From Closterium sp. NIES-65 (Eukaryota; Streptophyta; Zygnematophyceae; Desmidiales; Closteriaceae), in assembly GCA_948144175.1 (NCBI GenBank), contig CANXME010002463.1:2317001-2381000 (forward strand): a DNA stretch of 64,000 nucleotides, written 5' to 3'. Shown piece after piece: positions 242 to 55,043 of this stretch (the stretch's first letter is position 1; every line of letters begins with the position of its first letter). A program made the translations under genes and the position numbers. The notes beneath the pieces are model-generated. The model searched no databases. It had not been told where the DNA came from and worked only from the letters and a program-made list of their open reading frames with translations.

Positions 242-3200
242 CTGTAGTGAACGGAAAAGGAGGAATTGGGGAAGGCAACGGGGGATGATGGGGTTGTGGG
301 AAAAAAAGGAGAAAGAAAAAAAAAACAGCCTGTGCCATGCAAAGTTTTGTACCAGACACCCTAACGCCACCTCACATGCTAACCCCCTCCTCCTCCTCCC
401 TCCCCCACTCTTGAGTTGACTCAACAGGGACTCACATTGGTGAGGGTGGCAGTGCACGAGTGGCACTCCCTAAGCAGAGAGTAGAAGCCAGAAGCACACT
501 CAGAGCATAGCCGCACCTGGGCATACCCCTCTCCACACTGCCCATACTCCTCTCCATCCCCCCCAACCCCTCTGCACCGCGCCTGCTCCCCCTCCCCTCC
601 GACGCACACCGCCGCCGCCACACCCCCTCCTTGTGCTGAAATAGAATCCGGATTCGGGTAAATTTGAGAATTGCTTCCATTTTGGAGGGTAGAAGCTTGG
701 AACCCGGGGCACCCGTTGAGCACATCGCACGAATACACCACCACCTGCCCGTTCGCCACGCTCCCGGGATCCAGCCAATACCCCGCCGCCACGTCAGCAA
801 CGCCGTCAGAGCAGGTCATAGCGGGGAGGTGGGTGCGGGCGTTGGTGGTGTTGGGGCAGGGGAGGCAGTCAGTGGGGGAGGTGGCACCTGGGCGGAAGGA
901 GAAGGTGCCATCTGGGCAGTGCTGCGCGCCCTTGCCAGGCCCGCAGTAGCTGCCTATGGGACAGATGGTGCATCGCATCAGGCTGTTTTGAGGATTCTGA
1001 GAATGGTCAGATGTGAGAGGGGATGATCCTCCACTCATGGTGCTGTTGGCGGTGGTGCTGTTGGCGGTGCTGTTGGCGGTGGTGGTGGTGGTGGTGGTGC
1101 TGCTGCTGCTGCTGCTGCTGCTGCCGCCGCTGCTGCTATTGTAGTTGTTCGTGCCGTTCCCTGCTGTTTCGTAATACTGCCCGGCCGGGCAGAAAACGAT
1201 CTCCAGCGTGCGCTGAAACGGCGGGAACGCGTTCAGCGGGCTGCTGACGGCCACAGCCAATGAGAGCACGCCAGCTGTCCCATCAGGAGCATCGGCGCTG
1301 GAAGCGGGAGTTGCAGCAGAAGCGATGGGATCACCAGCAGGGTCAGCAAAAGTAGCCGTGGCGGGGTTACCACCAGTAGGAGAAGCCGTAGGGTAAGCAG
1401 TAGGAGTTAAGGAGGGAGGCACTTGGACGATTGTGATGGGCGGCACAGTGACAGTGCCGCCCACTGCTGTTGCTCGCAGCTCCCCCGAAATGAATGGGCT
1501 TGGCACCACCTCAACCAGCACCGAGTCATCCTGTTAGGTAGAGCGGAGATGGAGGGGAAAGATGGAAGAGAGAGAATGAGAGAGAGGGGTGTGTGAAGAG
1601 AGCGGCACAGTGAGAGTGCCGCCCACTGCTGTTGCTCGTAGCTCCCCCGAGATGAAGGGGCTTTGTACCACCTCCACCAGCACCGAGTCATCCTGCTGTG
1701 TGGAGAGGGGGGGAGAGGGATGAGAGGAGACGAAGGGGTCAGGGCTCCTTCCTTCTGCGGCTTGTGGCTCGCGAGTGATGAACGGGCTTGACACCACCTC
1801 CACCAGCACCGAGTCATCCTGCTGTGTGGAGAGGGGGAGGAGGGGAAGGGATGGGGGTAGAGGCATGCAGAGTGCAGAAAATCCGGGTTTAAGGCGATGA
1901 GGCCAGCAACAGCGAGCACAGCACAGTACAGCACCGCACCGCACAGCACAGCACAGTACAGCACCGCACCGCACCGCACCGCACAGAACAACAGACTCAC
2001 ACTGGAAGCCAGGAGGCCGGCAGCATCGAGCAGAGTGACGTGCAGCCCTGAGACGGGGTTGGCCATGTCCCCCCTCACCCTGTAGCGCGCCTGGCCCCCT
2101 GTGTCCCGCTCGCCACTGCCTGACCACCTGGTGGGGATACAGTGCACAGCACAACAGAAGAGGGGTGGAGAGGGGTAGAAAGGGGTGAAGAGGCAGCATC
2201 GGGCAGAGTGACGTGCAGCCCTGAGACGGGGTTGGCCATGTCCCCCCTCACCCTGTATTGCGCCTCCCCGCTTGCATCCCGCTCCCCACTTCCCACCTGG
2301 TGACGGCACAAGAGAGGGGTGGAGAGGGGTGGAGCGGGATGGAGAGCGGTGCAGGAGACGGGGTTGGCCATGTCCCCCCTCACCCTGTACCTCGCCTCAC
2401 TGCCTGTGTCCCGCTCCCCACTGCCTTCCCACCTGGTGAAGGTACAGCGCACAGCACACAGGAGAGGGGTCGAAAGGGGTGGAGAGGGGTGGTCGTACCA
2501 TTCCTTTTTGTGCTGGTCCCACCGGACCCACTCGTTCTGACTACCATGTTGCCTTGGAAGGCCGACTTTTGAGTCGACTCAAAGGTCCCACGGGTCCCAC
2601 TCGTTCTGGCCGCCGTGTTGCCTTGGAAGGCCAGAGGGCCTATGGCTTACAGAGTGTCACTCTCTGCTGCCGCCTCTCACGCACTCACTAACTCACTCAC
2701 TCACTCACTCACGTACTCACTCACTCACTCACCCACGCACTCATCACATCATGAAAGAAGTGGGTGGAGATCCCAAGGTGTCCCTGGGGTCGGTGCGATG
2801 GCAGCGGAGGCAGGGCCACCGAGGGTTGTTGAGCCTAGACATGCAAGTCCCAATCACCCACACACTCACCACATCATAAAGGAAGTTGGAGGAGAGCCCA
2901 AGGTGTCCCTGGGGTCGGTGCGGTGGCAGCGGAGGCAGGGCGAGCGCTTGGACGGCTCAAAGGTGGCGTCGAAAAAGGCAGAGCCCCCCAGGGTAGCAGC
3001 CACACTCGTGCTGGCCGCAGTGTTGCCTTGGAAAGCCAGACGAGACACCGCCAACGGCAGCAGGCCTCCACCCCCTGCTGATGCTGCTGCTGCTGCTGAA
3101 GCCACACCAGTGGCAGCAGCAGCAGCAGCATCAGCAGCAGTAGCAGTTGCAGTGCTGTTGCTCATGTCAGTGTTGCCATCAGCTCCACTCCCATCCACAG

Positions 3201-6200
3201 ATCCAGCACCTGGGGGCAGAAACTCACTCACAGCCACCGATCCAGCCCCAGCATCTCCCACCTCCCCACCCGCCGCCCCTCCCCGGTTGATATACACCCC
3301 CGCGCCCTCCCCACCGCCCACATTCCTCTTGAAAGCACACGCCGTGAGGGTGCCGTGAGCCTGTTCTAGAACAGCCATTCCTGCTCCCGATTCGCCGGCT
3401 TTGTTGTTGGTGAATGTGGCGCCTGCGATGGTTATGGTGGCGTTGCCTCCTGCGAATATTCCGGCCCCCTGGTGTTCTGCGCGGTTCCTTATAAGCCGCG
3501 GCCGCAGCCGGGCTTGTAACGAGGATGGCCCTGCTGCCTCCGCGCCTCCCGCTAAACCTTCCCCTGCTGCTCCTTTCACTCCTCCTGCTGCTCCTAACCC
3601 TGCTGCTCCCCCTGATGCTGCAGCTCCCAACAAATCATCCGACAGAGTCAGGCTGCTGTCAGCATCAGCAAAAACCGCCCCACCTCTCCTCGCCCAGTTC
3701 CCCTCCATAACCACCCCCCCCATCAGCACCACCACAGCCACATCCGAGACCTGAACCGCCCCGCCGTCCCTCGACCCTCCCGCACCGTTCCCTCTGAACC
3801 CCGTGTCTTGAAACCTCGCCTTGGTCTGCCCCATCAGCACCACACCGTGTTGCTCATTCCGCTCGAATCCCGATTTCCCGGTCACTGAAACCACCACCTC
3901 TCCTTCCGCTAGCAATCCACCGCCCACCAAAGCCCGGTTCGCCACAAACTGAGAGTCGGAAATAGAGAGGTTGGACTTGTGGATGGCATACACCCCCCCG
4001 CCTTGCACTTTCGCTGTGTTTCCGGTGAGATTCGAACCGGAGACCTTAACCTGGGCGTTCATTTCCGCCCACAGGGCCCCTCCGTCTAAAGCGGAGTTGT
4101 TAGAGAGGAGAGACGAGGAGAGGGAGAGGAGCGTTTGGCCGGTCATTCGCAGCGCTCCGCCCTCGTTCCCGCCGTCGTTTCCCGTGATGTTAGACGACGT
4201 GACTGTAGCGGTGGCGAACTCACCCAGGGAGATGCAGCCTCCCCCGGATGGTGCCTGGTTCCAAGAGCACTCGCTGCGGTGCAATCTGAGCCGTCCAAAG
4301 TCCTCGATCAGAACGGCGCCGCCGCTGCCGGAGCGGCAGTGGAGGAGGGAGCAGTTGAGTGCGCTGAGTGCTGCTTGGGAGGAGAGGGAGATTGCTCCCC
4401 CCCCCAGATCGGCCCGATTGGAGAGGAAGTGCGAGTGGGAGACAGTGACAGGGTAGAGCGTGCCGTTGGTTGCTGCTGTAGAGGTGCCTTCAACTGATGC
4501 AGGGAAGGAGGGGAGGGGTGCGAGGGAGAGGGGGAGGGGATGATGAGAAAGATGATAGACAGTGAGGAGGGAGACAGACAGGATAGAGTGTGCCATTGAC
4601 AGGGGAGGGGGGAGAGGAGGGGGGAGGGGGGAGGGTGGAGGGGGGAGGGTGGAGGGAGGAGTGGGGAGGGGGGAGGGGGGAGGGAGGAGAAGGGAGGGGG
4701 GAAGGGGGTGTAAATGGAGGTGAAAGGGGTAGAGATCTGGAACAAAGGGGGCAGCAGTGGAGGAGCGAGCAGTCGACTGCTGCTTGTGAGGAGAGGGAAA
4801 TCGCCCCGCTGCCCAGATTGGACGATTAAAAAGGAAGTGCGAGTGCGTGAGGGAAGGCGGGGAGAATGGGTGCAAATGGAGGGTGAAAGGGCATTCAAGA
4901 GGCTGGAGAAGGGAAGAGAGGGTAAGATAGATCTGTGCTCATGAAGAAGGGCAGCAGTAGGCAAGGTCGCCTTTAGCAAAGGGACGATAGTCAACCAGTG
5001 AAAAAAAGTAACCCTCGAAACAATTGATTAAGATCCGAACGTACAACTCAGTTCAAACTCTAGCAACTCATGTGGAAAAGTAGAACCCACTCCAGTATCC
5101 ACTCAATCCATCTCAGTTTGTTCCCCACTCTCGTATCCACTCAATCCATCTCAGTTTGTTCCCCACTCTCGTATCCACTCAATCCATCTCAGTTTGTTCC
5201 CCACTCTCCACTCAATCCATCTCAGTTTGTTACCGGGAGTGATTTCTCTCATAATAACCACTCCATCCAACTGCAAATCTTCTGTTCCCTTCCATGTGAT
5301 TTTTTAGGCGCCTTAAAAATCATCCCAATGCATAGCTTCTGTCCCCCAGCATTTTGGGAACCCCCCAGCAGTGCATAGCTTCTGTTCCCCAGCATTTTGG
5401 GAACCCCCCAGCAGTGCATAGCTTCTGTTCCCCAGCATTTTGGGAACCCCCCAGCAGTGCATAGCTTCTGTTCCCCAGCATTTTGGGAACCCCCCAGCAG
5501 TGCATAGCTTCTTTTACCTTCCATGTGCTTCTCCTACCTGATATCGCTCCTCCTTTGACCAGGGCGGAGTTGTTAACGAAAGTGGAGTTGTCTATAGCGA
5601 GTATGTTGCCAGAGAAAGCAATGGCTCCTCCCTTGGAGAGCAGAGCGGAGTTGTTGAGAAAGAGCGAGTGGGACACGAGGACAGTGCCTGTGGTTGCCTG
5701 CACAATGCAGTGAAAAGATCAATAGAAAAAGGGTGCCATTTCCATTAGGAGAAGAGCGGGGAGCAGAGAGGAGTTGTTGAGAAAGAGCGAGTGGGACACG
5801 AGGACCGTGCCTGTGGTTGCCGTGCCTGTGGTTGCCTGCACAATGGATTGGATTAGCAGATGAAGGTGTAGAGGTGTTGGGGAGGGAGGTGACGGGACGA
5901 GGGAAAAAGGGATAATCCCCCCCAAACACCCCTAGCCCCACCTCTTGCACGTAGATCCCCCCCCCCCCCCCTCCCCCGAGAGGGCAGTGTTGTTGAGAAA
6001 GGCGGCGCGGGTGATGTTCGTTACCCCCACGTTTCCTGTACGTATTGCCCTTTCTCCCCCCCAAACACCCTTTGCCCCACCTCTTGCACGTAGATCGCCC
6101 CGCCCTCCCCCGAGAGAGCAGTGTTGTTAAGAAAGGTGGTGCGGGTGATGTTGGTCTGCCCCACGCCCCCGGTTACTATGGCCCCTCCGTTGTGCAGCAC

Positions 6201-9200
6201 TGTGTTTCCGGTGAACTCACAGCCGTCCACTGTTGCTTCCCGCAAGAAGAGCGCTGCGTGGGGATGGGAAGGGTGGGGGAGGAACATTGGGGGTGTGCTG
6301 AGGCGCCTACCCTCCCCAGTGGCCATGCCCCCTCGCCCCTCCGTTGTGCAGCACTGTGTTTCCAGTGAACTCACAGTTGACTTTTGAGTCGACTCAAAAG
6401 TCAACTCCCCACGCCCCAGGTTACTATGGCCCCTCCGTTGTGCAGCACTGTGTTTCCGGTGAACTCACAGCCGTCCACTGTTGCTTCCCGCAAGAAGAGC
6501 GCTGCGTGGGGATGGGAAGGGTGGGGGAGGAACATTGGGGGTGTGCTGAGGCGCCTACCCTCCCCAGTGGCCATGCCCCCTCGCCCCTCCGTTGTGCAGC
6601 ACTGTGTTTCCAGTGAACTCACAGTTGACTTTTGAGTCGACTCAAAAGTCAACTCCCCACGCCCCAGGTTACTATGGCCCCTCCGTTGTGCAGCACTGTG
6701 TTTCCGGTGAACTCACAGCCGTCCACTGTTGCTTCACGCAAGAAGAGCGCTGCACGGATGGGGAGAGGGAGAAAGAGGGAGGGGAGGAGAGAGAGGAGGG
6801 GGGTGAGAGGATACAGAGGAGGAGCGGTGAGGGATGCTCTGCTGAGAGACGTCTCGACACAGCATGCCAGCGCCAACTATCCTGAAAGCGTTTTGAGACG
6901 TCTCGACACAGCATGCCAACGCCAACTATCCTGAAAGCGTTTTGAGACGTCTCGACACGGCATGCCAGCGCCAACTATCCTGAAAGTGTTTTGAGACGTC
7001 TCGACACGGCATGCCAGCGCCAACTATCCTGAAAGTGTTTTGAGACGTCTTGACACGGCATGCCAGCGCCAACTATCCTGAAAGCGTTTTGAAACGTCTC
7101 GACACAGCATGCCAGCGCCAACTATCCTGAAAGTGTTTTGAGACGTCTCGACACGGCATGCCAGCGCCAACTATCCTGGAAGTGTTTGAGACGTCTCGAC
7201 ACGGCATGCCAGCGCCAACTATCCTGAAAGTGTTTTGAGACGTCTCGACACGGCATGCCAGCGCCAACTATCCTGAAAGTGTTTTGAGACGTCTCGACAC
7301 GGCATGCCAGCGCCGACTATCCTGAAAGCGTTTTGAGACGTCTCGACACGGCATGCCAGCGCCGACTATCCTGAAAGCGTTTTGAGACGTCTCGACACGG
7401 CATGCCAGCGCCAGAGGAATGTTGCAGAGGAATGTTGCAGAGGAATGTTGCAGAGGAATGTTGCAGAGGAATGTTGCAGAGGAATGTTGCAGAGGAATGT
7501 TGCAGAGGAATGTTGCAGAGGAATGTTGCAGAGGAATGTTGCAGAGGAATGTTGCAGAGGAATGTTGCAGAGGAATGTTGCAGAGGAATGTTGCAGAGGA
7601 ATGTTGCAGAGGAATGTTGCAGAGGAATGTTGCAGAGGAATGTTGCAGAGGAATGTTGCAGAGGAATGTTGCAGAGGAATGTTGCAGAGGAATGTTGCAG
7701 AGGAATGTTGCAGAGGAATGTTGCAGAGGAATGTTGCAGAGGTGGTGATGGTAAGCCGAGCTTGCATGCGGCCACTGCATACCAGCGCCGGCAGGTTTTT
7801 GAGAATTCTAAAAAACCTAGTGGTGTTTGTGGTAAGCCGAGCTTGCATGTAAGCCGAGCTTGCATGTAAGCAGAGCTTGCCAGTCTCAACACCGTGTATC
7901 AGCGCCGGCAGGGCGGAAAGACGCCGCATGCATCTAATCACGGCGTCGCTCGCTCGCTCTCAAAGCTGCGTGATCAAAGTGTTGTTTCGAGCCAGTCTCA
8001 ACACCGCGTACCAGCGCCGGCAGTGCGGAAAGACGCCGCGTTGCGGATGAACCGCGTGCGCCTGATCACGGCGTCGCTCTCAAAGCTCGCTCCGCCCGCA
8101 AACCGCGCCCGATTCTCCTCAAACACACAATCCTCCACCTCCATCCACACAGGATCGCTCCCCATCATTCCCCACGAGTGCAGCAGCGCCCCCCCCTGAC
8201 CCGTCGCCGCGTCTGTCGTGTGCTTTGCTTCGTTCCCCACAAACGAGCAGTTGGAAAGAAAGCTCGGGCAGTCTATCACATAGACCGCTCCTCCAAAGGC
8301 CATCATGGGGGATTCTGCAATGTTGTGGAAAAACCGCGAGTGCCGAACGGTGATGGTCGAGCCCTGGCCTTCCAGTGCCGCCCCTCCGCCGCCCTGCGGG
8401 GTCATCGCGCGGTTACCGTGAAACTCGCAGGCAGTAACCGTAAGGTTGGCGACTCTTAAAGCCATGATCCCGGCCCCACCCATGAAGCTCGAGCCGTTGC
8501 GGAAGGAGGAGAGGGAGACGGAGAGGGAGGTGGTGTGGTTGGCGTGGATTGCGGCGCCACGCATGTAGGAGGTGTATGCGTCGAGGAGTGGGTTGGTGGC
8601 GACGCAGGAGAGGAAGGAGCAGCGCGAGACGGTGAGAGAGGGAGAGGAGGTATCAGCCATACAGCCCCCGATGGTGGCCTGATGGGGGTGGAAGGGAGGG
8701 AGGATGGGGTGTTAGTGTTAGCCTTCAATCTCACACTTTGTACTTTGTATTTTCTATATCCTAGAGTAGTGTGGTTTGCACATTGTGTTTGGTTGGGTGT
8801 ACACCTACATCCCAACCAAACTCAAATGTAATCTCCAAGCAATCTCCAACCCACCAATTGGAGATTGCCTTGGGATTACCCCCAATCCCTATGGATTGCC
8901 CCCGATTCCCTTCCCCATCCATTCCCTCCCCTTCTTGGATGTACTTAAAGAGCTTCAAGCTCATTACTAATGTATCGTTTCTAAGCCTAAGTTATGAGAT
9001 GGGGAAGAGGGAGGGAGGAGGAAGGAGCAGTAAGAGAGGGTGAGGGAGGAACAGTGGGAGACGGCGAGGGCGGGGGAGCATGTGTCAGCCATACAACCCC
9101 CGATTGTGGCCTGATTGGGGTGGGAGGGAGGGAGGGAAGGAGTGGGGGAGGAGAGAAAGTGGAGTGAGGGAAAAGTGTGCGCCATCGATGCGCCCAGAGC

Positions 9201-12200
9201 ACCCTCTGGTGCTCAACCACTGACCAACCCGTACCCATCCCTACCCATCCCTACCCAACCATCCCCAGCCCCACTGACCTTATTATCGGAGAACCTGACG
9301 CCATCAATGCGCCCAGAGCACCCACTCGTTGCCAGCCCCCCTCCACCCACCATCCCACACCATCCCCGCCCCACCTGCCCATCCCTACCCACCCGCCCAT
9401 CCCAACCACAGATCACCACGCACACCTTATTATCGAAGAACCTGACGCCATCAATGCGCCCAGAGCACCCACTCGTTGCCAGCCCCCCTCCATTTGCATC
9501 AGCCGAGCAGCGCGAGAATTCCCCTCCCCGCACCTCCACCCTACTGGCTTCGCAGTAAACACCTCCCCCAAAACCAGCCTTCGCAGAACACCCCTTGAAC
9601 CAACAGTCTGTCACGCTCGCTATGGTCACGTTTCGTAACGCCACGCCCCCACCGCCTCCTGAGTGGGTGGAGACGGATGAGGCGCTGACGTGGACGCGCG
9701 AGAGTGTGACACGTGGCGCGTTGAGGACCGAGATCGCCCCGCCGTGACTGGCCGCAGAGCATCCGGTGAAGGAGGCATTGCTGACGTGGACGGCCTGATT
9801 CTCAACCAATAAACAGCCGCCACGTGGCGCACCTGCCCGGCCGTTCCGCACAGTGATTCCTGCGAGGACCAATCGCGCGTGGCCACATGGCACCACGGCA
9901 GTGGCTGGATCACAGACGGCCAAAAGGCAAGCCCCCCCTCCACAGTCAATAATTGGGGCGGCGGGGACAGAAGGAGGAGAGGGACCGAGGGGAGGAGGAG
10001 GAGAAGGAGGAGGAGGGTTGGGAAGGGGGGAGGGGAGAGCAGCGAGGAGAGAGATGGATTGGCCACCGAGAGCGAGGCCAGCAGTGGGGAGGCGGTGAGA
10101 ACCCGGGGAGAGAAGCAGAGCGCCGCCTGATGAGGGCAGCCTGTGGGGTGGGAGCGAGCATGGGTGAGCAAAGGAAACATGGTTGGGAGGGAGGGAGGGG
10201 AGGGCGCCTGCTGGGGGCGACTTGGGGGTGGGGGAGAGGATGGTTGAGCATGGGTGAGCAAGAATGGGGACGCGATGTGAAGGGTGTAGGGATTGCGGGC
10301 ATGGTTAAAAAATACGGTCTTGTTTTTGAAATATTTACCATAAAATACGGTCGTGTTTTTGAAATATTTACCGTAAAATACGGTACAGTGTCATAGGCTC
10401 CTGTGAGAAATTGTAAAGCAGTTTAAAAAATACCGTGTTTTTTTTTTTTTTTTTTTTTTTTCCTCAGGTTTGAGACGTTTCAGACGGCCTGGGTGACCAA
10501 GAATGTGAGTGGAGCGGATTTATCATCAAGGAGTGTGGCTCGTGAGTGAGTGAGTGACCATGGCGGTATTTGGGGGTGCTGTGTAGCTGTCTGGTGAATG
10601 GGAGAAGTGAGGTGACTGGCGGGGCGTGTAGATGCACAACAAACAGCACAAGGTGAGGTGAGCGGAATGAGCAGGGGGTGCAGAGGGGGGATGAGAGAGA
10701 CAAAGGAGTGGAGAGCGGTTGAGGGCATGTAGGGTGGGTTGCGGATGCAAGGCGGGTTGTTTTATCCAATGCGAGTTGTTCCACTCACATTGATAGGCCA
10801 AGCTCCATTGTGCCTGCAAGCACACACATTCACGATGGCATGAAATGGCATGGCATGGCGTGGCATGGCATGGCATGGCGTGGCATGGCATGGCATGGCG
10901 TGGCATGGCATGGCATGGAATTGCATGGCATGGCATGGCATGGCATGGCATGGCATGGCATGCAACCAGACATGCCCACAAACACACACACACACAGCAT
11001 AAAACACAAGAGCAGCGCATGAGCAAAAAGGTGAAGCAATTGAGGGAGTTAGTCAGCAAAAAGCTGCACAGACGAAATCAGAAGGATAACATGAAAACCA
11101 GCAGGCGGCAAGCACAGTTTTGAGACGTCTCAAAACTCTACTTTTATCACGTGGCAGCAGGCTGCAAGCACAGCGAGGCTGCAAGCACAGCGAGGCTGCA
11201 AGCACAGCGAGGCTCAACTGGTGGCAGGGGCACGGAGCGCACCACAGGGAGTGGCAGAGTCGCCGCAGCAGCCTGGTGCCGCTGACCCATGCCCGCCCGC
11301 ACGCACATGCACCTGCTCCAGCTGTGGGCAGCCTGAGAAGAGCAGGATCGGGCACGTGAGAGGCGGGCAGGGGAAAATGGGGGGATCAGGTAGCCCGCAG
11401 CAGCCTGGTGCTGCTGACCCATGCACGCCCGCGCGCACATGCACCTGCTCCAGAGGTGGGCATCCCAAGCAGGAGCAGGAGAGGGGCGGGAAAGGGGGTA
11501 GGGGGAAGGAGGGGGGGGGATATTCAGGCGCCTCAAAAATCAGTTTGACTTGGGCTCATGTCTTGAGACGTCTCAAAAATCAGGCTGGCGTGGGCTCGTG
11601 ACCATCCAAACCATCCATGCCCCCGTCCATGCTCCCATCCATGCCCCCATCCATGCCCCCATCCATGCCCCCATCCATGCCCCCATCCATGCTCCCATCC
11701 ATGCCCCCATCCATGCCCCCATCCATGCCCCCATCCATGCCCCCATCCATGCCCCCACCCCATCCATGCCCCCATCCATGCCCCCATCCATGCCCCCATC
11801 CATGCCCCCATCCATGCCCCCATCCATGCCCCCATCCATGCTCCCATCCATGCCCCCATCCATGCACCCATGCATGCACCCATGCATGCACCCATGCATG
11901 CCCCCATGCATGTCCCCATGCATGCCTCCACCCACGCATGCATGCAAGTGCACCTGCCGTGAAAGTGGGCAACCTGAACATGAGAATGTGAGACAGTGAT
12001 GGGCGTGAGAGAATGATTCAGGTGAGGGGTTTATTAGGATGAGGGTGTTCATTCGGGTGGGGGGATGATTCAAGTTAGGGGGCGATTAGGGTGAAGGTTT
12101 GAGAAAGAATAATGATGCACGCCACTTACCGTCACAACCCTCTCATATTAATCGTCCCCCATCCCTCATCCCCCTTTCAATCCCTTTCAACACCCCCAAA

Positions 12201-23162: not shown

Positions 23163-23195
<33 letters not shown>

Positions 23196-43800: not shown

Positions 43801-46800
43801 ACGGCACCTCGGGGATCAGGCAGCAGTCCTGGGTAGGGGGCGGGGGCAGAGAGAGTAGAGGGGGTTGGGATGACACAGTGGTCGTTCTCATACAGCTTCC
43901 TCTCCATGAACTCAAACAGGCCTCCCTCGCCCTCTAGATGGAAAGGGACTTGGGGGATGAGACAGCAGTCCTGGGGGTAAAGTGGGTGGGTGAGGGGTAA
44001 AAGGGCAACGATGGCGCAGTGGTCGTTCTCATACAGCTTCCTCTCCCTGCACTAAATGAGACCCCCTTCGCTCTCTAGCTGGAAGGGCACCTCGAGAATC
44101 AGACACCTGGTAGGGAGGAGAGCGGATGCGGGAGATGGGGGGGAGAGGAGAGGGGAAGGATGGGCGCTACCACAAACACAAGCACAAACGGAGCAAGCAG
44201 CACGAGGCCTTTCCCTGCCCCGCGCCCTTAGCCTCAAAAACAACATGCCTCAGCCTCAGCGACAACGATGACGCAGTGGTCGTTCTCATGCGACCACAAT
44301 GATACAGTTTGCGGGGCAATGCGATTGAGAGATTCCTCCAGGTGTGAGGTGCAGGTGTGAGGTGCAGGTGTGAGGTGCAGGTGTGAGGTGCAGGTGTGAG
44401 GTGCAGGTTTGACGTCAGGTTTGACGTCAGGTTTGAGGTGAAGGTTTGAGGTCAGGTTTGACGTCAGGTTTGACAACAGGTTTGACGCCAGGTTTGACCC
44501 AGGTTTGACGTCAGGTTTGACATCAGGTTTGAGGTGCAGGTTTGAGGTGCAGGTTTGAGGTGCAGGTTTGAGGTGCAGGTTTGACGTCAGGTTTGACAAC
44601 AGGTTTGACGCCAGGTTTGACGCCAGGTTTGACGTCAGGTTTGACGTCAGGTATGAGGTGCAGGTTTGAGGTGCAGGTTTGAGGTGCAGGTTTGAGGTGC
44701 AGGTTTGACGTCAGGTTTGACGTCAGGTTTGAGGTGAAGGTTTGAGGTCAGGTTTGACGTCAGGTTTGACAACAGGTTTGACGCCAGGTTTGACCCAGGT
44801 TTGACGACAGGTTTGACGTCAGGTTTGAGGTGCAGGTTTGAGGTGCAGGTTTGAGGTGCAGGTTTGAGGTGCAGGTTTGAGGTCAGGTTTGATGTCAGGT
44901 TTGACGTCAGGTTAGAGGTGCAGGTTTGAGGTGCAGGTTTGAGGTGCAGGTTTGAGGTGCAGGTTTGAGGTGCAGGTTTGAGGTGCAGGTTTGACGTGCA
45001 AGTTTGAGGTCAGGTTTGACGTCAGGATTGACGTGCAAGTTTGAGGTCAGGTTTAACGTCAGGTTTGACGTCAGGTTAGAGGTGCAGGTTTGACGTCAGG
45101 TTTGAGGTGCAGGTTTGACGTCAGGTTTGACGTCAGGTTTGAGGTGCAGGTTTGAGGTGCAGGTTTGACATGAGGTTTGACGTCAGGTTTGAGGTGAAGG
45201 TTTGAGGTCAGGTTTGACGTCAGGTTTGACAACAGGTTTGACGCCAGGTTTGACCCAGGTTTGACGACAGGTTTGACGTCAGGTTTGAGGGGAAGGTTTG
45301 AGGTGCAGGTTTGAGGTGCAGGTTTGAGGTGCAGGTTTGACGTGCAAGTTTGAGGTCAGGTTTGACGTCAGGTTTGACGTGCAGGTTAAAGGTGCAGGTT
45401 TGACGTCAGGTTTGACGTCAGGTTTAAGGTGCAGGTTTGACGTCAGGTTTGAGGTGCAGGTTTGAGGTGCAGGTTTGACGTCAGGTTTGAGGTGCAGGTT
45501 TGACGTCAGGTTAAAGGTGCAGGTTTGACGTCAGGTTTGACGTCAGGTTTAACGTGCAGGTTTGACGTCAGGTTTGAGGTGCAGGTTTGAGGTGCAGGTT
45601 TGACGTCAGGTTTGAGGTGCAGGTTTGACGTCAGGCTTGACGTCAGGTTTGAGGTGCAGGTTTGAGGTGCAGGTTTGAGGTGCAGGTTTGCCGTCAGGTT
45701 TGACGTCAGTTTTGGGGTGCAGGTTTGAGGTGCAGGTTTGAGGTGCAGGTTTGACGTCAGGTTTGATGTCAGGTTTGAGGTAAAGGTTTGAGGTCAGGTT
45801 TGACGTCAGGTTTGACAACAGGTTTGACGCCAAGTTTGACGTTAGGTTTGATGTCAGGTATGACCCAGGTTTGACGTCAGGTTTGAGGTGAAGGTTTGAG
45901 GTGCAGGTTTGAGGTGCAGGTTTGAGGTGCAGGTTTGACGTCAGGTTTGATGTCAGGTTTGACGTCAGATTTGAGGTGCAGGTTTGAGGTCAGGTTAGAC
46001 GTCAGGTTTGAGGTGCAGGTTTGAGGTGCAGGTTTGAGGTGCAGGTTTGAGGTGCAGGTTTGAGGTCAGGTTTGACGTCAGGTTTGACTGCAGGTTTGAG
46101 GTGCAGCTTTGAGGTGCAGGTTTGACGTCAGGTTTGATGTAAGGTTTGAGGTGAAGGTTTGAGGTCAGGTTTGACGTCAGGTTTGACGTCAGGTTTGACA
46201 ACAGGTTTGACACCAGGTTTGACCCAGGTTTGACGTAAGGTTTGAGGTGCAGGTTTGACGTCAGGTTTGACATCAGGTTTGAGGTGAAGGTTTGAGGTCA
46301 GGTTTGACGTCAGGTTTGACAACAGGTTTGACGCCAGGTTTGACCCAGGTTTGACGTCAGGTTTGACGTCAGGTTTGAGGTGCAGGTTTGAGGTGCGGGT
46401 TTGACGTCAGGTTTGACAACAGGTTTGACGCCAGGTTTGACGCCAGGTTTGACGTCAGGTTTGAGGTGAAGGTTTGAGGTCAGGTTTGACGTCAGTTTTG
46501 ACAACAGGTTTGACGCCAGGTTTGACGCCAGGTTTGAGGTGCAGGTTTGAGGTGCAGGTTTGACGCAGGTTTGAGGTGCAGGTTTGAGGTGCAGGTTTGA
46601 CATACAGGTTTGACGTGCAGGTTTGACGTGCAAGTTTGAGGTCAGGTTTGACGTCAGGTTAGAGGCGCAGGATTGACGTCAGGTTTGAGGTGCAGGTTTG
46701 AGGTGCAGGTTTGAGGTGCAGGTTTGAGGTCAGGTTTGAGGTCAGGTTTGACGTCAGGTTTGAGGTGCAGGTTTGAGGTGCAGGATGGACGTCAGGTTGG

Positions 46801-49800
46801 ACGTCAGGTTTGATGTCAGGTTTGACGTCAGGTTTGAGGTGCAGGTTTGAGGTCAGGTTTGACGTCAGGTTTGAGGTCAGGTTTGATGTCAGGTTTGAGG
46901 TGCAGGTTTGAGGTGCAGGTTTGAGGTGCAGGTTTGACGGCAGGTTTGAGGTGCAGGTTTGAGGTGCAGGTTTGACGTCAGGTTTGAGGTCAGATTTGAC
47001 GTCAGGTTTGAGGTCAGGTTTGATGTCAGGTTTGAGGTGCAGGTTTGAGTTCAGGTTTGAGGTGCAGGTTTGAGGTGCAGGTTTGAGGTGCAGGTTTGAG
47101 GTCAGGTTTGAGGTCAGGTTTGACGTCAGGTTTGAGGTGCAGGTTTGAGGTGCAGGATGGACGTCAGGTTGGACGTCAGGTTTGATGTCAGGTTTGACGT
47201 CAGGTTTGAGGTGCAGGTTTGAGGTCAGGTTTGACGTCAGGTTTGAGGTCAGGTTTGATGTCAGGTTTGAGGTGCAGGTTTGAGGTGCAGGTTTGAGGTG
47301 CAGGTTTGACGGCAGGTTTGAGGTGCAGGTTTGAGGTGCAGGTTTGACGTCAGGTTTGAGGTCAGATTTGACGTCAGGTTTGAGGTCAGGTTTGATGTCA
47401 GGTTTGAGGTGCAGGTTTGAGATCCAGGTTTGAGGTGCAGGTTTGAGGTGCAGTGCAGGTTTGACGTGCAGGTTTGACGTGCAAGTTTGAGGTCAGGTTT
47501 GACGTCAGGTTTGACGTCAGGTTAGAGGTGCAGGTTTGACGTCAGGTTTGAGGTGCAGGTTTGAGGTGCAGGTTTGAGGTCAGGTTTGAGGTGAAGGTTT
47601 GAGGTGCAGGTTTGAGGTGCAGGTTTGAGGTGCAGGTTTGACGTCAGGTTTGACGTCAGGTTTGAGGTGCAGGTTTGAGGTCAGGTTTGATGTCAGGTTT
47701 GAGGTCAGGTTTGACGTCAGGTTAGAGGTGCAGGTTTGACGTCAGGTTTGAGGTGCAGGTTTGAGGTGCAGGTTTGAGGTGCAGGTTTGAGGTGCAGGTT
47801 TGACGTCAGGTTTGACGTCAGGTTTGAGGTGCAGGTTTGAGTTCAGGTTTGAGGTGAAGGTTTGAGGTGCAGGTTTGAGGTGCAGGTTTGAGGTGCAGGT
47901 TTGACGTCAGGTTTGACGTCAGGTTTGAGGTGCAGGTTTGAGGTCAGGTTTGACGTCAGGTTTGAGGTCAGGTTTGACATCAGGTTAGAGGTGCAGGTTT
48001 GACGTCAGGTTTGAGGTGCAGGTTTGAGGTCAGGTTTGAGGTGCAGGTTTGAGGTGCAGGTTTGAGGTTCAGGTTTGAGGTGCAGGTTTGACGTCAGGTT
48101 TGATGTCAGGTTTGACGTCAGGTTTGACGTCAGGTTTGAGGTGCAGGTTTGAGGTGCAGGTTTGAGGTGCAGGTTTGACGTCAAGTTTGACGTCAGGTTT
48201 GAGGTGCAAGTTTGAGGTGCAGGTTTGAGGTGGAGGTTTGAGGTGCAGGTTTGACGTCAGGTTTGATGTCAGGTTTGAGGTGAAGGTTTGAGGTCAGGTT
48301 TGACGTCAGGTTTGACAACAGGTTTGACGCCAAGTTTGACGTCAGGTTTGACGTCAGGTTTGACCCAGGTTTGACGTCAGGTTTGACAACAGGTTTGACG
48401 CCAAGTTTGACGTCAGGTTTGACGTCAGGTTTGACCCAGGTTTGACGTCAGGTTTGAGGCGCAGGTTTGAGGTGCAGGTTTGAGGTGCAGGTTTGAGGTG
48501 CAGGTTTGACGTGCAGGTTTGACATCAGGTTTGACGTCAGGTTTGACGTCAGGTTTGACGGCAGGTTTGAGGTGCAGGTTTGTTGTGCAGGTTCGAGGTG
48601 CAGGTTTGAGGTGCAGGTTTGACGTCAGGTTTGATGTCAGGTTTGAGGTGAAGGTTTGAGGTCAGGTTTGACGTCAGGTTTTACATCAGGTTTGACAACA
48701 GGTTTGACGCCAGGTTTGACCCAGGTTTGACGTCAGGTTTGAGGTGCAGGTTTGACGTCAGGTTTGAGGTGAAGGTTTGAGGTCAGGTTTGACGTCAGGT
48801 TTGACAACAAGTTTAACGCCAGGTTTGACCCAGGTTTGATGTCAGGTTTGACGTCAGGTTTGAGGTGCAGGTTTGAGGTGCAGGTTTGACGTCAGGTTTG
48901 ACAACAGGTTTGACGCCAGGTTTGACGCCAGGTTTGACGTCAGGTTTGAGGTGAAGGTTTGAGGTCAGGTTTCACGTCAGTTTTGACAACAGGTTTGACG
49001 CCAGGTTTGACGCCAGGTTTGACGTCAGGTTTGACGTCAGGTTTGAGGTGCAGGTTTAAGGTGCAGGTTTGACGTCAGGTTTGAGGTGCAGGTTTGAGGT
49101 GCAGGTTTGACGTCAGGTTTGACGTCAGGTTTGACGTCAGGTTTGAGGTGCAGGTTTGAGGTGCAGGTTTGACGTGAAGGTTTGACGTGCAAGTTTGAGG
49201 TCAGGTTAGAGGTGCAGGTTTGAGGTCAGGTTAGAGGTGCAGGTTTGACGTCAGGTTTGAGGTGCAGGTTTGAGGTGCAGGTTTGAGGTGCAGGTTTGAG
49301 GTGCAGGTTTGAGGTGCAGGTTTGACGTCAGGTTTGACGTCAGGTTTGACGCCAGGTTTGACGTCAGGTTTGAGGTGCAGGTTTGAGGTCAGGTTTGACG
49401 TCAGGTTTGAGGTGCAGGTTTGAGGTGCAGGTTTGAGGTGCAGGTTTGACGTCAGGTTTGACGTCAGGTTTGAGGTGCAGGTTTGAGGTGCAGGTTTGAC
49501 GTGAAGGTTTGACGTGCAAGTTTGAGGTCAGGTTAGAGGTGCAGGTTTGAGGTCAGGTTAGAGGTGCAGGTTTGACGTCAGGTTTGAGGTGCAGGTTTGA
49601 GGTGCAGGTTTGAGGTGCAGGTTTGAGGTCAGGTTTGAGGTGCAGGTTTGACGTCAGGTTTGACGTGCAAGTTTGAGGTCAGGTTTGACGTCAGGTTTGA
49701 CGTCAGGTTAGAGGTGCAGGTTTGACGTCAGGTTTGAGGTGCAGGTTTGAGGTGCAGGTTAGAGGTGCAGGTTTGAGGTCAGGTTTGACGTGCAAGTTTG

Positions 49801-52800
49801 AGGTGCAGGTTTGAGGTGCAGGTTTGACGTCAGGTTTGAGGTCAGGTTTGAGGTCAGGTTTGAGGTGCAGGTTTGAGGTCAGGTTTGAGGTCAGGTTTGA
49901 CGTCAGGTTTGAGGTCAGGTTTGACGTCAGGTTTGAGGTGCAGGTTTGAGGTGCAGGTTTGACGGCAGGTTTGAGGTGCAGGTTTGAGGTGCAGGTTTGA
50001 CGTCAGGTTTGACGTCAGGTTTGAGGTGCAGATTTGAGGACGTTTGAGGTGCAGGTTTGACGTCAGGTTTGACGTCAGGATTGAGGTGCAGGTTTGAGGT
50101 CAGGTTTGACGTCATGTTTGAGGTGCAGGTTTGAGGTGCAGGTTTGACGTCAGGTTTGAGGTCGTCAGGTTTGAGGTCAGGTTTGATGTCAGGTTTGAGG
50201 TGCAGGTTTGAGGTGCAGGTTTGACGTCAGGACTGAGGGGGGAAGGACGGGGTAGGAGGGGGGGAGGACGGGGGAGGGAGGATGGAGGAGGAGGGGAGGA
50301 CGGGGGGAGGACGGGAGAAGGACGGGGGAGGAGGGAGGAAGGACGGGGGAAGGTCGCCGGGAGGTGGGGGGGAGGAGGGGGGGAGGACGGGGGGGGGAGA
50401 GTGAGAGGAGGGGGGGGGATAGGGGGACGAGAGGGGGAGGATAGGGGGAGGAGAGGGGAGGAGAGGGGGAGAAGAGGAGGAGGAGAGGGGGAGGAGAGGA
50501 GGTTTGAGGGAAGCAGATGGGGTCCCCTCTAGTCATACCTTTCTTGTCTCTTGACCCTAGTCTAGTGCCTGCCACACAACCACTTCCACCCTCAATCAGC
50601 CCTTCCCCCCATTCCCCCCCATTCCCCCCCATCCCCGCCCCTTCCTTCTCACCACGTCGCGGCTGGCAAGAGTGGCGTGCATGGCGATTTGACCTGATAT
50701 AGGGGTGGGCGGAGTGGAGTAGGGTGGGATGGGGCGGGAAGGGGCGAGGTGGGGTTGAGTGGGAGTGGGAGTGTGAGTGTGAGTTGGAGTAAGAATGGGA
50801 GTGAGAGTGAAAGTGGGAATGGGAATGGGAATGGGAGTGCGGGTGGGAGCGAAAATGGGAGAGGGAGTGGGAGTGGGAGTGGGAGTTGGGTTGGGAGTGG
50901 GAGTGGGAGTGGGAGTGGGAGTGGGAGTGGGAGTGGGAGTGGGAGTGGGAGTGGGAATGGGAGTGGGAGTGGGAACGGGAGTGGGAGCGGGAGTGGGAGT
51001 GGGAGCGGGAGTGGGAGCGAGAGCGGGAGTGGGAGCGGGAGACCAAGATCAGGTTGTGATGACAGAGAGAGATCGGAGCAGAGCAGGTGATATGATATCA
51101 GCCGCAGCACCGATGGCCCTCTGAGCCTCCTCCAAGTTCCAACCCTGTAACCACACCACCACCAGCCTCTACCCTTTACTCAGTGCCGTCCCATCCCTTC
51201 ATCCTTACACTCACCGCAGTATCGCCCCATCAGCTTCACCAGCCCCACCCCCCGGTGAGTGCTCGTGACCTCCACGCGTGCAGCGCTGATGGCCCTCTGA
51301 GCCTCCTCCACCTCTCAACGCACAACGACAACAGCGTCTCTCCCCTGTTCCAATGCACTCACCGCAGTATCGCCCCATGAGCTTCACCAGCCCCACCCCC
51401 CGGTGAGTGCTCGTGACCTCCACCCTCGCAGCGCTGATGGCCCGCTGAGCCTCCTCCACAGCCGAGTCAAACCCAAACGACCGGTCGATCACTGCAATGT
51501 CGTTATCGATCGTTTTAGGAATTCCCGCCACGGACACCTTGAGTCCCCTCCTCCTGGTTTCCTGCGGGGGGCAAGGAGGCGAACAAGGAGGATAAGGGAG
51601 CGCTGATGGCCCGCTGAGCCTCCTCCCGCTGAGCCTCCTCCCGCTGAGCCTCCTCCCGCTGAGCCTCCTCCCGCTGAGCCTCCGCCCGCTGAGCTTAAAG
51701 AGTCAAACCCAAACGACCGGTCGATCACTGCAATGTCATTGTCTATCGTTTTAGGGATTCCTGCCACCTTCAGTCCCCTCCGCCCCGTCTCCTGTCGCGT
51801 GCAAGGGGAGTACTCCAAACTTTGAGATGCCTTCCAAGGAAAAGAGGACCAATGAGGAGATCGCACGACATTCCACAAGACCTGCAGTAAGCCGTTATCA
51901 CCCCCCACCTGTATGGTCTATGGGCTCAACCCTTCCCACCGCACGGCACCGCACACCACCCGTGCCTGCCATGTTTCCCATGGTCATTGTCCCACGCACC
52001 TCATAAATGATCCCTGTCAGCCCTTTGCACCGCACCTCATGTACAGCTGCCTGAGGAGCCGTGCCAGCCCTTTGCACCGCACGGCACCGCATACCACCCA
52101 TCATACCTGCCATGCTCCCCACGTCCCACGCCTCACGCACCTCATAGATGATCTCGGCGCCACGCTGCGTGCCGTCCCCCCCTATGATGTACAACTGTCA
52201 GGGTGGGAGGAGAGCGGGCGACGGGGGTTGGAAGCGAGGGAAGGAGAGGAAATCGGAGAAAATGTTTCAAGGCACCTCAAGAGCACACTGCGTGCCGTCC
52301 CCCCCTATGATGTACAGCTGGCATGGAGGGGAAGAGGACATTGTGGTGAGGGAGTGGGAAGGGAAAGAGCACACATTTGAAAAAGGCGCTGTTGTGAAGA
52401 TGTCCGCACTACTGCAGTGTGCCATCCCTTCCTATCATGTACCAATAAACTAACCTGTTAATTCTCCTGCGGCGTCACCTGAGAGTTCCTCTGCCTGCCA
52501 CTTCACCTGGTTGATGCCTCACCGCACCGCACCACACCTGGTTGATGCCTCACCGCACCGCACCGCACCTGGTTGATGCCTCACCGCACCGCACCGCACC
52601 ACACCTGGTTGATGCCTCACCGCACCGCACCGCACCTGGTTGATGCCGCGGTCTTCAATGGAGTTGACGATCTTGGTGGAGTCATGCCCGCCTCGGGAAG
52701 TACCCAGGAAGGTTCCTCCGCGCTTGTGAATGTCGTTCACCTTCCACGGGTCCAGCTGCAGCAGGTTGCGGCTGTAGAACCCGCGGTACCCGCCCTGGGT

Positions 52801-55043
52801 GGGGGGGAGTGGTGGGGGGAGGGGGGGGGGGGGGGAGAGGAAGTTAAGCTTCCTGCTTTGGGTCCACGGTCCACCTTGGTGCTTCCACGGGTCCAACTGC
52901 AGCAGGTTGCCGCTGAAAGGCCTCGATAGCCGCCCTGGGTGGGGGCGGTAGATCAGTCCTATTCGACACAATGCACCGCACCGCCCAGTTCTTCCCCACA
53001 AGCCTCCCAGTACGGCCCTGCCGTCGCTTCCCCTCGCCTCGCTCTCCCTCCTTCCACCATCCCGCCCCCTCCTCCTCTTCCAAGGCAACACACATCAATG
53101 CCGGAGATACTCCTGACGCTGTAGCGGAACCAGAGCGCCCACACGAGCTCGCACCCTGCTCCCCTTTCCCCACCCCACTCTTACGCACATCAATGCCGGA
53201 GATGTTGCGCACGCCGTAGCGGAACCACAGCGCCCACACGAGCTCGCGAATGACTGTGTTGAGCCCGGGACACAGCCCCCCACACGTGACTATGGCTGCC
53301 CGCACGTCCTGAGGCTGGAATGCCACCTGTGAGAAGAGAGAGGGAGGAGTGGAAAGGGGCAAAGGGAAGGGGGAATGACAGTGTTGAGCCCGGGGCACAG
53401 CCCGCCGCACGTCACTATGGCTGCCCGCACGTCCTGCAGCTGGAAGGCGACCTGGAAGGGGGGTGCAATGGGGGAGGGGGGAAAGGGGAAGGAGAGGTTG
53501 GGCGGCAGGGAAGCAGGCAAGGGAGGGAGGGATGACCGTGTTGAGGCCGGGGCAGAGAGAGACTACCGCACGTCACGGTTCTTTTTGAGGCGCCTCAAAA
53601 ATCATGGCCAGGGCAGAGACCAGGGCACGTCACAATTCTTCCCCCTATCCCCCCTCCCTCCCCTCCCCTCCCTTCTCCACCTTCCTCCTCCCTCACCTGC
53701 TCGCGTGGTCCAGAGCGTCGGAAGACTCGAATGTCGTCCACACTGCCCGTCTTGATGAGCGCCTGGTTGGAGAACCGGAGCAGTTGGGGGGTGGGGGAGG
53801 TGCGGGGCGGGGGCGTGTGGGTTGGGGAGAAGGGGGGCCTTGAAAGAGACCATCGGAAGACTCGAATGTCGTCCACACTGCCCGTCTTGATGAGCGCCTG
53901 AGGGAGAAGCGGAAGACGGGAGACGGGAGACGGGAGAGGGGGGATGGGAGGGGAGAGAGGGGACGGGAGAGGAGGGATGGGAGGGGAGAGAGGGGACGGG
54001 AGAGGGGGACGGGAGAGGGGGGACGGGAAACGAGCAGGCAGGCGGAGAAAAACACGACGCGGCAGGAAGGACGGAGAGGGAATGAGGGGAAGGGCGGACG
54101 GGGAATGGGGAGAGAATGGAGGGGGAAATGGCTTGGGAGAAACGCACCTTCTGGCACACGACGTCCTCACTGTCCACGAAGTAATTCCTGGTGGTGGTGA
54201 TGGGTGCAGATGGGCGCGGATGGGCGCGGATGGGCGCAGATGGGCGCGGATACGCGAGGAGCGGGGGGGGGATGAGGAGGATTGGAGGGAATGAGACGGC
54301 AGGAAGGGGTAATATGAGGATTGCAGAGGAGTGGGATGGCAAACACAGGAGGTTGGCCACAGCACAGCACAATGCACTTCAACAATGAATATCACAGTGA
54401 GGTGTGCGCTGAGGTGTGCGCTCATGCACCCTTGTGCAGAACAGCAGCACGGAATGGTTGTAAAGGGTATGGGATCGTATTGCTTACTCGGGTCGATTAG
54501 GGCTTCGAAGCAGCGGATTATTGTACATCTGCGATAGACACGGACGAAGAGAGAGACACAGAACGAGAAAGAGAGAAGGATAGAGACAGAGAAGGCAAGT
54601 AAGTCACACGCAGTTGTGCACCAAGAAGGTCCAAGGTCCGGACTGAAAAGTGACACTGAATAAGAGAATAGATATTTGTAAAGAAAAGAAAACGGAAGCA
54701 GAGCAGTGCGTGTGTGCACCTGTAGGTCAGGAATCCATTCGGAAATGTGCGGAACGTCGTCGAGAATCACTGCGGACCGGATTCCCATCGCTCTATCTTG
54801 CTGCCGGTCTCGCCTCGCAAAGCGACTGGAGTCGAAGCAGTCTATACCGCATCCGTTTTGACGGCGCGGCGACCGTAGATTCGCCGCTCCTTGACTCCAT
54901 CCTCCTGCGCGGCTCCACGCGATCTGATTCGTTATAGGACGACTTGAGTTAGAGTCTCTAGTCGGATTTCCGGAGGAGCTAGTATGGAGGGCATGATAGT
55001 GTAAGGCATTCTGACGCAGCGCTGAAGCGCTGCAAGAAGCCAT
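40842..55043 (-). CDS. PFK: Plant-type ATP-dependent 6-phosphofructokinase
   Basis: Phosphorylates fructose-6-phosphate to fructose-1,6-bisphosphate in glycolysis. Thirteen exons: 55043..54720, 54528..54488, 54187..54148, 53762..53697, 53326..53189, 52794..52636, 52194..52141, 51561..51363, 50693..50653, 43828..43604, 42368..42320, 41961..41807, 41117..40842. All phases close, giving 588 residues. Motifs: [22 protein letters not shown], the nucleotide site GGDGTQRGA (Gly where PPi enzymes have Asp), the catalytic segment [26 protein letters not shown] and [12 protein letters not shown]. The first about 85 residues precede the usual plant start and could be a transit peptide, or the protein could begin at a later Met ([11 protein letters not shown]); undecided. 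Most introns hold copies of exon edges, so splice choice between near-identical sites is uncertain. Intron 9 is 6.8 kb, mainly a minisatellite. Confidence 0.9.
41506..41630. repeat. 12-bp repeat GCATGGGCGGGC in the last PFK intron
   Basis: About ten copies, GCATGGGTGGGT type on the left and GCATGGGCGGGC type on the right, directly beside a partial copy of the penultimate exon. Confidence 0.9.
41631..42125 (-). repeat. Partial copies on both sides of PFK exon 41961..41807
   Basis: A copy of the exon's 3' part with donor (encoding [20 protein letters not shown]) lies at 41638-41750. A copy of its 5' part with acceptor ([20 protein letters not shown]) lies at about 42030-42118. The main exon between them is the only one that carries both halves. 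Confidence 0.9.
42570..43060. repeat. 18-bp GC-rich minisatellite in a PFK intron
   Basis: About 26 copies of GCGCGCGTGGACCAAGGC with GCTTTAGGGTGGACCAAG and GCGTGCGTGTGGACCAAG variants arranged in a higher-order pattern (the GCTTTAGGG variant recurs every few units). The length is a multiple of three, so all frames tend to be open. Confidence 0.95.
43130..43560 (-). repeat. Three copies of the 3' edge of PFK exon 43828..43604
   Basis: Segments ending near 43150, 43292 and 43447 each encode [17 protein letters not shown] and a donor; a fourth, shorter copy lies at about 42518-42562 beside the 18-bp array. They vary in the part encoding [11 protein letters not shown]. Confidence 0.9.
43855..44330 (-). 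repeat. Copies of the 5' edge of PFK exon 43828..43604
   Basis: Copies at about 43865-43970 (encoding [17 protein letters not shown] and [10 protein letters not shown]), 44015-44110 and 44255-44300 become shorter and more diverged away from the main exon. Confidence 0.85.
44339..50234. repeat. 5.9-kb minisatellite of 11-13-bp units inside a PFK intron
   Basis: Built from a small set of interchangeable units: AGGTTTGAGGTGC (13), AGGTTTGACGTC, AGGTTTGAGGTC, AGGTTTGACAAC and AGGTTTGACGCC (12) and AGGTTTGACCC (11). Several hundred units in all. The GACGTC units followed by AGG create well over a hundred TGACGTCA palindromes. Larger blocks, such as the run with GACAAC, GACGCC and GACCC units, recur many times, showing higher-order duplication; a roughly 370-bp block at about 46680-47040 is repeated almost unchanged at about 47050-47410. 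It lies wholly between PFK exons 50693..50653 and 43828..43604. Confidence 0.97.
50235..50510. repeat. Purine-rich G/A tract in the PFK intron
   Basis: Irregular GGGGGAGGA repeats on the plus strand, i.e. a long polypyrimidine stretch on the sense strand of PFK, directly between the minisatellite and exon 50693..50653. Confidence 0.85.
50755..51045. repeat. GGGAGT hexanucleotide repeat in a PFK intron
   Basis: Imperfect GGGAGT/GGGAAT/GGGAGC repeats over about 290 bp, in the intron between exons 51561..51363 and 50693..50653. Confidence 0.9.
51210..51310 (-). repeat. Copy of the 3' edge of PFK exon 51561..51363
   Basis: Encodes [20 protein letters not shown] and continues to MGRYC with a donor at about 51221. 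It is nearly identical to the main exon's end, so either donor could serve. Confidence 0.85.
51600..51805 (-). repeat. 15-bp repeat and copy of the 5' edge of PFK exon 51561..51363
   Basis: About six CGCTGAGCCTCCTCC units (51602-51690) grew out of the exon segment encoding EEAQRA. To their right, 51700-51800 is a second acceptor-plus-exon start ([20 protein letters not shown]). Confidence 0.85.
51975..52445 (-). repeat. Edge copies around PFK exon 52194..52141
   Basis: Copies of the 5' part (encoding [10 protein letters not shown]) with acceptor lie at about 52285-52320, with a weaker one near 52420-52442. Copies of the donor end (CACCTCAT-GATC) lie near 52000-52010 and 52028-52040. Confidence 0.75.
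52505..52645 (-). repeat. Array of 5' splice sites after PFK exon 52794..52636
   Basis: CACCTGGTTGATGCC followed by TCACCGCACCGCACC repeats about four times. In sense orientation each unit reads GGCATCAACCAG then GTGCGG, i.e. the exon end and its donor. Confidence 0.9.
52840..52945 (-). repeat. Copy of the 5' edge of PFK exon 52794..52636
   Basis: Repeats the acceptor and the segment for GGYRGL and the TCCA-CTGCAGCAGGTTG block about 140 bp upstream of the main exon, with more divergence. Confidence 0.8.
53085..53580 (-). repeat. Edge copies around PFK exon 53326..53189
   Basis: A donor-side copy at about 53093-53150 ([16 protein letters not shown]) and an acceptor-side copy at about 53375-53455 ([18 protein letters not shown] and CPGLNTV). 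A further short fragment lies at about 53530-53575. Confidence 0.85.
53582..53601. repeat. Palindrome TTTTGAG-GCGC-CTCAAAA at a duplication junction
   Basis: Flanked on the left by GGCCGGGGCAGAGAGAC and GCACGTCACGGTTC, on the right by GGCCAGGGCAGAGACC and GCACGTCACAATTC: two copies of the same segment. Confidence 0.85.
53845..53905 (-). repeat. Copy of the 5' edge of PFK exon 53762..53697
   Basis: Repeats the acceptor and [15 protein letters not shown] with almost no change, then diverges. Confidence 0.9.

Follow-up and report, generated by a model that had tools for sequence, protein, structure and literature searches.

A recurrent family of short palindromes between direct copies of local sequence in a 64-kb window of Closterium sp. 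NIES-65

Short tandem duplications that arise by fill-in of staggered breaks have been reported in plants and mammals (PMC8355091, PMC5730883, PMC7407515; Vaughn and Bennetzen 2014, cited through PMC7407515 and PMC5730883; Schiml 2016, cited through PMC5730883). In the parts of these papers available to us, the repair-made duplications of rice, Arabidopsis and mammals follow staggered breaks or adjacent opposite nicks, are direct, lie at the join, are shorter than 100 bp and of variable length, and sometimes carry extra inserted bases (PMC5730883, PMC7407515, PMC8355091). Here we describe loci of the same build, in which a short palindrome (P) lies between two direct copies of a local segment (X). 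At 8 of 12 P loci (at a duplication score of 16) the adjacent sequence is directly duplicated at the join, and we class these X-P-X structures with a known kind of duplication from which they differ in that the insert is recurrent, which is unusual. According to the same available parts, the inserts of repair-made duplications come from cis-templated, ectopic or near-break donors, whereas the insert described here belongs to one recurrent palindrome family and is not of the incidental, non-recurring kind. Among the literature matches listed (titles and the starts of abstracts, from few subscription journals), none described a family of palindromic inserts at tandem duplications, which is no proof that none exists, and four typed strings occurred in none of the papers searched.

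The nearest described objects that we found are organelle palindromes of the Volvox carteri type (PMC2670323). In the available part of that report they are hairpin-forming repeats of 10-100 nt that fall into families with variable sites and have nuclear copies, all of which recalls P, likewise within 10-100 nt and hairpin-forming. However, the Volvox loops are mostly TAAA or TTTA, a type not seen in P, the core of which is mostly NCGN; moreover, the available text does not mention duplication of the flanks and judges the nuclear copies to be inert transfers (PMC2670323). P also resembles MITEs in being small, in having a duplicated target and in its inverted repeats, P being itself an inverted repeat (the insert at 36919 is not). 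MITEs make fixed short target duplications and carry some internal sequence, and P differs from them in having neither a duplication of fixed length (X is 19-64 bp) nor internal sequence. A target duplication of variable length, as in LINE-type (target-primed) elements, was found. When searching IMG/VR and GTDB, no convincing relative of P was found. Eleven IMG/VR stretches with TTTTGAGNCGNCTCAAAA were rejected: in 9 of the 11 the core is not self-complementary, several are mutual copies, and the flank scores (5-11) are as by chance. Two GTDB stretches matching a longer pattern scored 8 each, one of them with a complementary core, and were also rejected. Two proteins of the window had no relative in IMG/VR.

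The window, by which we mean the whole 64-kb stretch that was analysed, reads as eukaryotic nuclear sequence by its ORF content. Integrase-type domains of retroelement character were found in ORFs at 18175-20526 and 25126-29646, beta-helix ORFs lie at 2866-4875 and 7998-8660, and the kinase ORF at 62748-63791 has mostly plant kinases among its PDB matches after IRAK4, a weak hint of a plant lineage. Phosphofructokinase-like exons lie near 52.5-53.4 kb (PDB match with E 5e-7; the Pfam match is under Pfam's cut-off). A retroelement block with internal short repeats (16.9-36.8 kb, limits picked after the P sites were known) holds none of the 12 P loci against 3.7 expected (probability of none 0.011).

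The pattern TTTTGAG-N4-CTCAAAA, with at most three mismatches, matched 36 times in the 64-kb window against 1.93 expected, a count reached by none of 100 shuffles; 11 of the matches are repeat units within a single 49-bp array (6846-7413), and several of the remaining ones are weak. This comparison with shuffled sequence bears out the palindrome family that a first-pass annotation had described. All palindromes that it listed are present, at most 4 bp from the starts it gave, those at 5300, 11525, 38872 and 39645 being imperfect, as is one copy of the quartet at 12693. Its list is extended here by P at 7797, the 49-bp array and a half-P at 36919. We grouped the copies into 12 P loci: 409, 2567, 5301, 6382 (with 6630), the 6846-7413 array, 7797, 11118, 11521/11561, 12694 (four copies), 38830/38873, 39645 and 53583. 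The window holds 16 perfect palindromes whose arms reach at least 7 bp, and ten of them belong to the family. A profile search for decayed P returned 35 sites with a score of at least 10, compared to 1.9 in Markov sequences; the sites at 986, 10468, 15864, 16086, 16344, 31351, 31565, 34311, 38517, 38686, 51119, 52265 and 58493 were set aside as probable chance matches.

P measures about 22-32 bp, with a consensus by eye near TGAYTTTTGAGNCGNCTCAAAARTCA. The longest, a perfect 32-bp palindrome present twice (6375-6406 and 6623-6654), gave 14 pairs when folded as a single DNA strand (-12.9 kcal/mol, z -6.0). A hairpin was formed by all nine P that were folded, with z between -1.9 and -4.9 in the other eight. 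The core is of the NCGN, AATT or ACTT type, and three subfamilies can be told apart by eye: T-core P with an outer arm AGTTGAC, G-core P with TGAT or TGAC, and A-core P with AG or GYG. The inserts have the palindrome at their centre and little other sequence besides. Their ends are variable, with one-sided trimming of the arms at several sites, and no A-tail was seen by eye; the palindrome has no readable orientation.

To describe the variation in P, 13 copies were aligned (one per array and both members of two double sites, without 409). The outer core pair was A-T in five, G-C in five, T-A in three and never mismatched, while the inner core pair was C-G in 11, A-T in one and mismatched in one. 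The pair just outside TTTTGAG/CTCAAAA was C-G in four, G-C in three, T-A in three and unpaired in three. Over 16 pairs the covariation score was 0.309 compared to 0.148 in shuffles, with 0 of 500 reaching it, and slid structures scored at most 0.108; this excess is partly expected, as the structure was found in the very sequences tested. Two of five covariation measures were unexceptional (both-side-change pairs, 190/500; further pair types, 206/500). It had been proposed that a constant recognition arm flanks a variable crossover. This is not supported, as the outer core pair and the pair outside the 7-bp arms vary as base pairs, and to judge from the aligned copies the variation looks like palindrome subfamilies rather than crossover inside fixed arms.

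The features are collected in the table.

Table. Palindrome loci and related duplications in the window
Feature	Start	End	Strand	Composition
Possible decayed P	409	426	.	flanks without duplication
X-P-X	2515	2632	.	T-core P as insert, GACTTTTGAGTCGACTCAAA, between X 2515-2563 and X 2584-2632
X-P-X	5264	5346	.	X 5264-5289 and 5321-5346; old G-core P 5297-5322 with 2 arm changes
X-P-X inside 248-bp tandem unit	6159	6753	.	T-core 32-bp perfect palindromes 6375-6406 and 6623-6654
49-bp tandem array	6846	7413	.	11.6 units, a decayed A-core P in each; array starts inside a P
X-P-X	7738	7849	.	X 7738-7768 and 7819-7849; P 7793-7818, AATT core
X-P-X	11099	11173	.	X 11099-11117 and 11155-11173; A-core P 11116-11137
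P-X-P-X	11521	11600	.	40-bp unit; GCGC-core P at 11521, ACGT-core P at 11561
X/P array	12653	12960	.	five 44-bp X, four T-core P between them, no P at either end
X-insert-X	36873	36982	.	46-bp X; insert TTTTGAGTTGATCACCAG, a non-palindromic half-P; from a scan blind to P
X-P-X-P'	38802	38890	.	identical 26-bp X; P with GCGC core, P' with ACTT core
Decayed P	39645	39662	.	flank repeat only about 11 bp by eye; duplication test failed
X-P-X	53545	53640	.	X 53545-53583 and 53606-53640; G-core P 53582-53601

Flanks were aligned over 70 bp per side, which cuts longer copies. Within these limits the direct X copies measured 19-64 bp: 49 bp at 2567, 26 at 5301, 64/65 at 6382, 31 at 7797 (longer by eye), 19 at 11118, 26 at 11561 (part of P included), 45 at 12694 and 39/35 at 53583. 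At 38830 they measured 32/30 bp including part of P, and 26 in the P-blind duplication search. No direct duplication was found in these flanks at 409, 38873 or 39645, nor at 11521 when considered by itself. The segments had been put at 20-250 bp, of which the lower range agrees with our lengths and the figure of 250 is the 248-bp period of the array at 6159-6753. Likewise, the palindromes had been placed exactly at the junctions, which holds at some sites and only loosely at others: the left X ends 11 bp before the 18-mer at 5301 and 28 bp before it at 7797, and the right X at 11118 starts 19 bp past it. By eye, P arms and X ends appear to share short matches at several joins (e.g. CTTT at 12694).

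In a uniform test, an 18-bp site with 70 bp per side had to lie at most 30 bp from both copies, and the P loci were compared with 4000 random positions outside short-period arrays (masked) and 4000 unmasked positions. At a score of 16, 8 of the 12 P loci passed, compared to 8.0% of the masked (p 6e-7) and 21.5% of the unmasked positions (p 1e-3). With a cut-off of 12, 9/12 passed (p 3e-6 masked, 7e-4 unmasked), with 20, 5/12 (6e-4 and 0.06), and with 25, 4/12 (3e-3 and 0.15); the cut-offs were considered only after the scores were known, and the passing sites 7797 and 11118 lie partly inside masked arrays themselves. The direct flank duplication claimed for nearly all sites thus stands at 8 of 12 loci at score 16, and fails at 409, 39645, 11561 (score 12) and the 49-bp array. 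The latter is ambiguous as an X-P-X structure: it scored 33, yet its right copy begins 35 bp off and so fails the adjacency rule. In a first unmasked test the duplicated P sites fell in the top 2-24% of random positions with 60-bp flanks, and only 6382 fell within the top 5% with 300-bp flanks. All these numbers come from one window with a duplication-rich background, and some of the sorting and counting was done by hand.

Other palindromes were examined by the same rule. Duplication was found at none of 15 centres with arms of at least 6 bp (a single AT run accounts for three of these centres, and the duplication near 16183, which scores 22, is 42 bp away), and 2 of 58 centres with arms of at least 5 bp lie between direct copies. 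Compared to the 8 of 12 P loci, this gives Fisher p values of 2e-4 and 2e-6, respectively. The idea that palindromes in general draw duplications was rejected on these control centres (0/15). In addition, a P-blind scan for direct duplications 10-40 bp apart returned 21 rows, 12 of which were set aside manually because they belong to longer repeats or are of low complexity. Three of the nine kept rows hold P (at 2515 and 38802 the copies enclose it, at 11532 they do so in part), and one holds the half-P at 36919, which does not fold and whose X copies are identical at 45 of 46 positions. The inserts of the other five (2729, 39867, 52018, 57127 and 62093) are unrelated to P. With a stricter score and free spacing, 78 local duplications were found in the window, most of them without P. 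At 57746-57789, GTTTGAGTTGGTTCACC lies in the spacer between 51-bp copies and by eye resembles the half-P insert.

At most passing loci one P lies between two X. The array at 12653-12960 has one P fewer than X and is bounded by P edges on both sides; P and X are equally numerous at 11521-11600 and at 38802-38890. Since two identical X carry clearly different P at 38802-38890, P was gained twice there and not copied. The X at 53545-53640 are degenerate copies of part of a phosphofructokinase-like exon, and the left one can still be aligned to the left context of a further exon copy (53373-53454); on this alignment, the exon copy supports the left half of a change from L-X-R to L-X-P-X-R. At older sites the two X differ by 5-19%. 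Over 8 of the 12 loci, X divergence and P arm changes (counts entered by hand) gave rho 0.68 (p 0.042) when 6382 was rated on its best 42 bp and rho 0.48 (p 0.12) when it was rated on its whole 64-bp alignment; including the half-P gave rho 0.21, and including 11561 gave 0.56. The early support for an equal age of P and X was thus lost when 6382 was rated on the whole alignment.

The observed anatomy, its association with duplication, the paired variation in P and the direct orientation of X would be accounted for if the repair of staggered breaks took in short palindromic DNA, the filled-in overhangs becoming X. We prefer this capture to a mobile element, independent duplication, organelle filler or artefact, and hold it tentatively, with slightly less than even confidence. 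A chromosome break would leave long staggered ends, with overhangs (19-64 nt as measured) corresponding to X; these would be filled in on both sides and a P molecule ligated or copied between them, turning L-X-R into L-X-P-X-R. P would often be trimmed on one side at the joint, and some sites would later expand into X-P-X-P-X arrays by slippage or unequal exchange. The insertion would be simultaneous with the duplication, and P would come from a separate donor, perhaps a hairpin single strand or a short duplex. In favour of capture are the 8 of 12 P loci between direct copies compared to 0 of 15 and 2 of 58 other palindromes, the presence of P or half-P in 4 of 9 kept blind-scan rows, the 12653-12960 array with its missing P and its ends at P edges, the exon copy at 53583 and the two different P at identical X in 38802-38890. 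Against it stand the many local duplications without P and the weaker unmasked tests, the weak age link, the equal numbers of P and X at 38802-38890 and 11521-11600, and the insert at 36919, which is only a half-P despite its nearly identical X; nor was a P donor or an enzyme found in the window analysed.

The first-pass annotation had offered two origins, insertion with a very long target duplication or repair through a fold-back. The former fits the anatomy. Fold-back copying predicts inverted flanks; looking outside the palindrome at 13 sites, we found two below 5% (0.022 and 0.040), neither strong, and because the flanks are direct and not inverted it is disfavoured as a general rule. Together with the documented fill-in of staggered breaks, this favours capture of short palindromic DNA.

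Insertion with target duplication would also be expected if P were a miniature transposable element. It would depend on an enzyme supplied in trans, whose target cuts would have a long and variable stagger, or else on target-primed reverse transcription from a hairpin RNA, and X would be the target-site duplication. A recurrent family with about 12 loci in 64 kb, its paired variation and the duplicated insertion point all agree with such an element. We nevertheless consider it rather unlikely, as the length of X is not fixed (19-64 bp), the ends of P vary and no DNA-transposase or LINE-type families were among the Pfam matches (18 of 177 ORFs scanned).

Palindromes are fragile DNA. P could be an old palindrome in dispersed copies that either breaks or stalls replication or marks existing tandem duplicates, the flanks having been duplicated independently of its arrival. 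Such fragility, the P inside the arrays at 6846-7413 and 12653-12960, a window that is duplication-rich anyway and the weak age link are consistent with this. However, when a segment beside an existing P is duplicated, P would as a rule be copied with it, whereas a single P between two X is commoner; other palindromes lack adjacent duplications; and fold-back repair would give inverted flanks, which are not the rule here. The loss of the age link moved our confidence in capture down from an even chance to just under it and that in a pre-existing P up, to a level at which we still regard it as distinctly unlikely.

It is very unlikely that P represents organelle DNA fragments, rich in short palindromes, that served as filler in nuclear breaks. 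Green-algal organelle genomes can abound in short palindromes, and nuclear copies of them occur as well, according to the available text of PMC2670323, but the same text gives mostly TAAA/TTTA for the Volvox plastid palindrome loops and its main part does not contain TTTTGAG; in addition, P inserts are centred on the palindrome with little else, unlike random organelle fragments. An assembly or sequencing artefact, conceivable at the young sites 12653-12960 and 38802-38890, whose identical X assemblers can miscopy, is highly improbable overall and unlikely for the old sites because their X differ by 5-19%, a difference hardly to be expected from an artefact.

Small tandem duplications contribute importantly to new genomic DNA, and their inserts are normally seen as incidental. 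A recurring palindromic insert would visibly tag the duplication event, showing the birthplaces of minisatellites and of duplicated exon pieces, and it would open the question of whether such a tag is itself a mobile element in minimal form. In a bolder form, which we think improbable, P would be a self-spreading hairpin no longer than about 32 bp, too short to hold genes, propagated through the nuclear genome by staggered-break capture; each capture would duplicate tens of bp of host DNA and seed a tandem repeat, and the arms would stay complementary as subfamilies diverge. The paired variation of core and arms makes maintenance of the palindrome testable by comparison of alleles.

Local tandem repeats occur throughout the window (141 rows). 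A 5.9-kb minisatellite at 44339-50238 has a 12-13-bp unit, CAGGTTTGAGGTG, in about 474 copies, and at 7412-7742 a 13-bp unit, CAGAGGAATGTTG, is repeated 25.5 times with 100% identity, adjoining the 49-bp P array. At many sites between 1440 and 62479, segments, some of them exon-like, recur at shifts of about 120-175 bp with diverged or polypurine sequence between them, which looks like recurrent partial gene duplication. A 130-bp duplication at 41626-41906 has a 21-bp spacer with a different near-palindrome, CTGAAAGCATTCAG, at its right edge. Finally, a 107-bp tandem duplication at 63570-63784 (100% matches) overlaps the protein-kinase ORF and has no insert.
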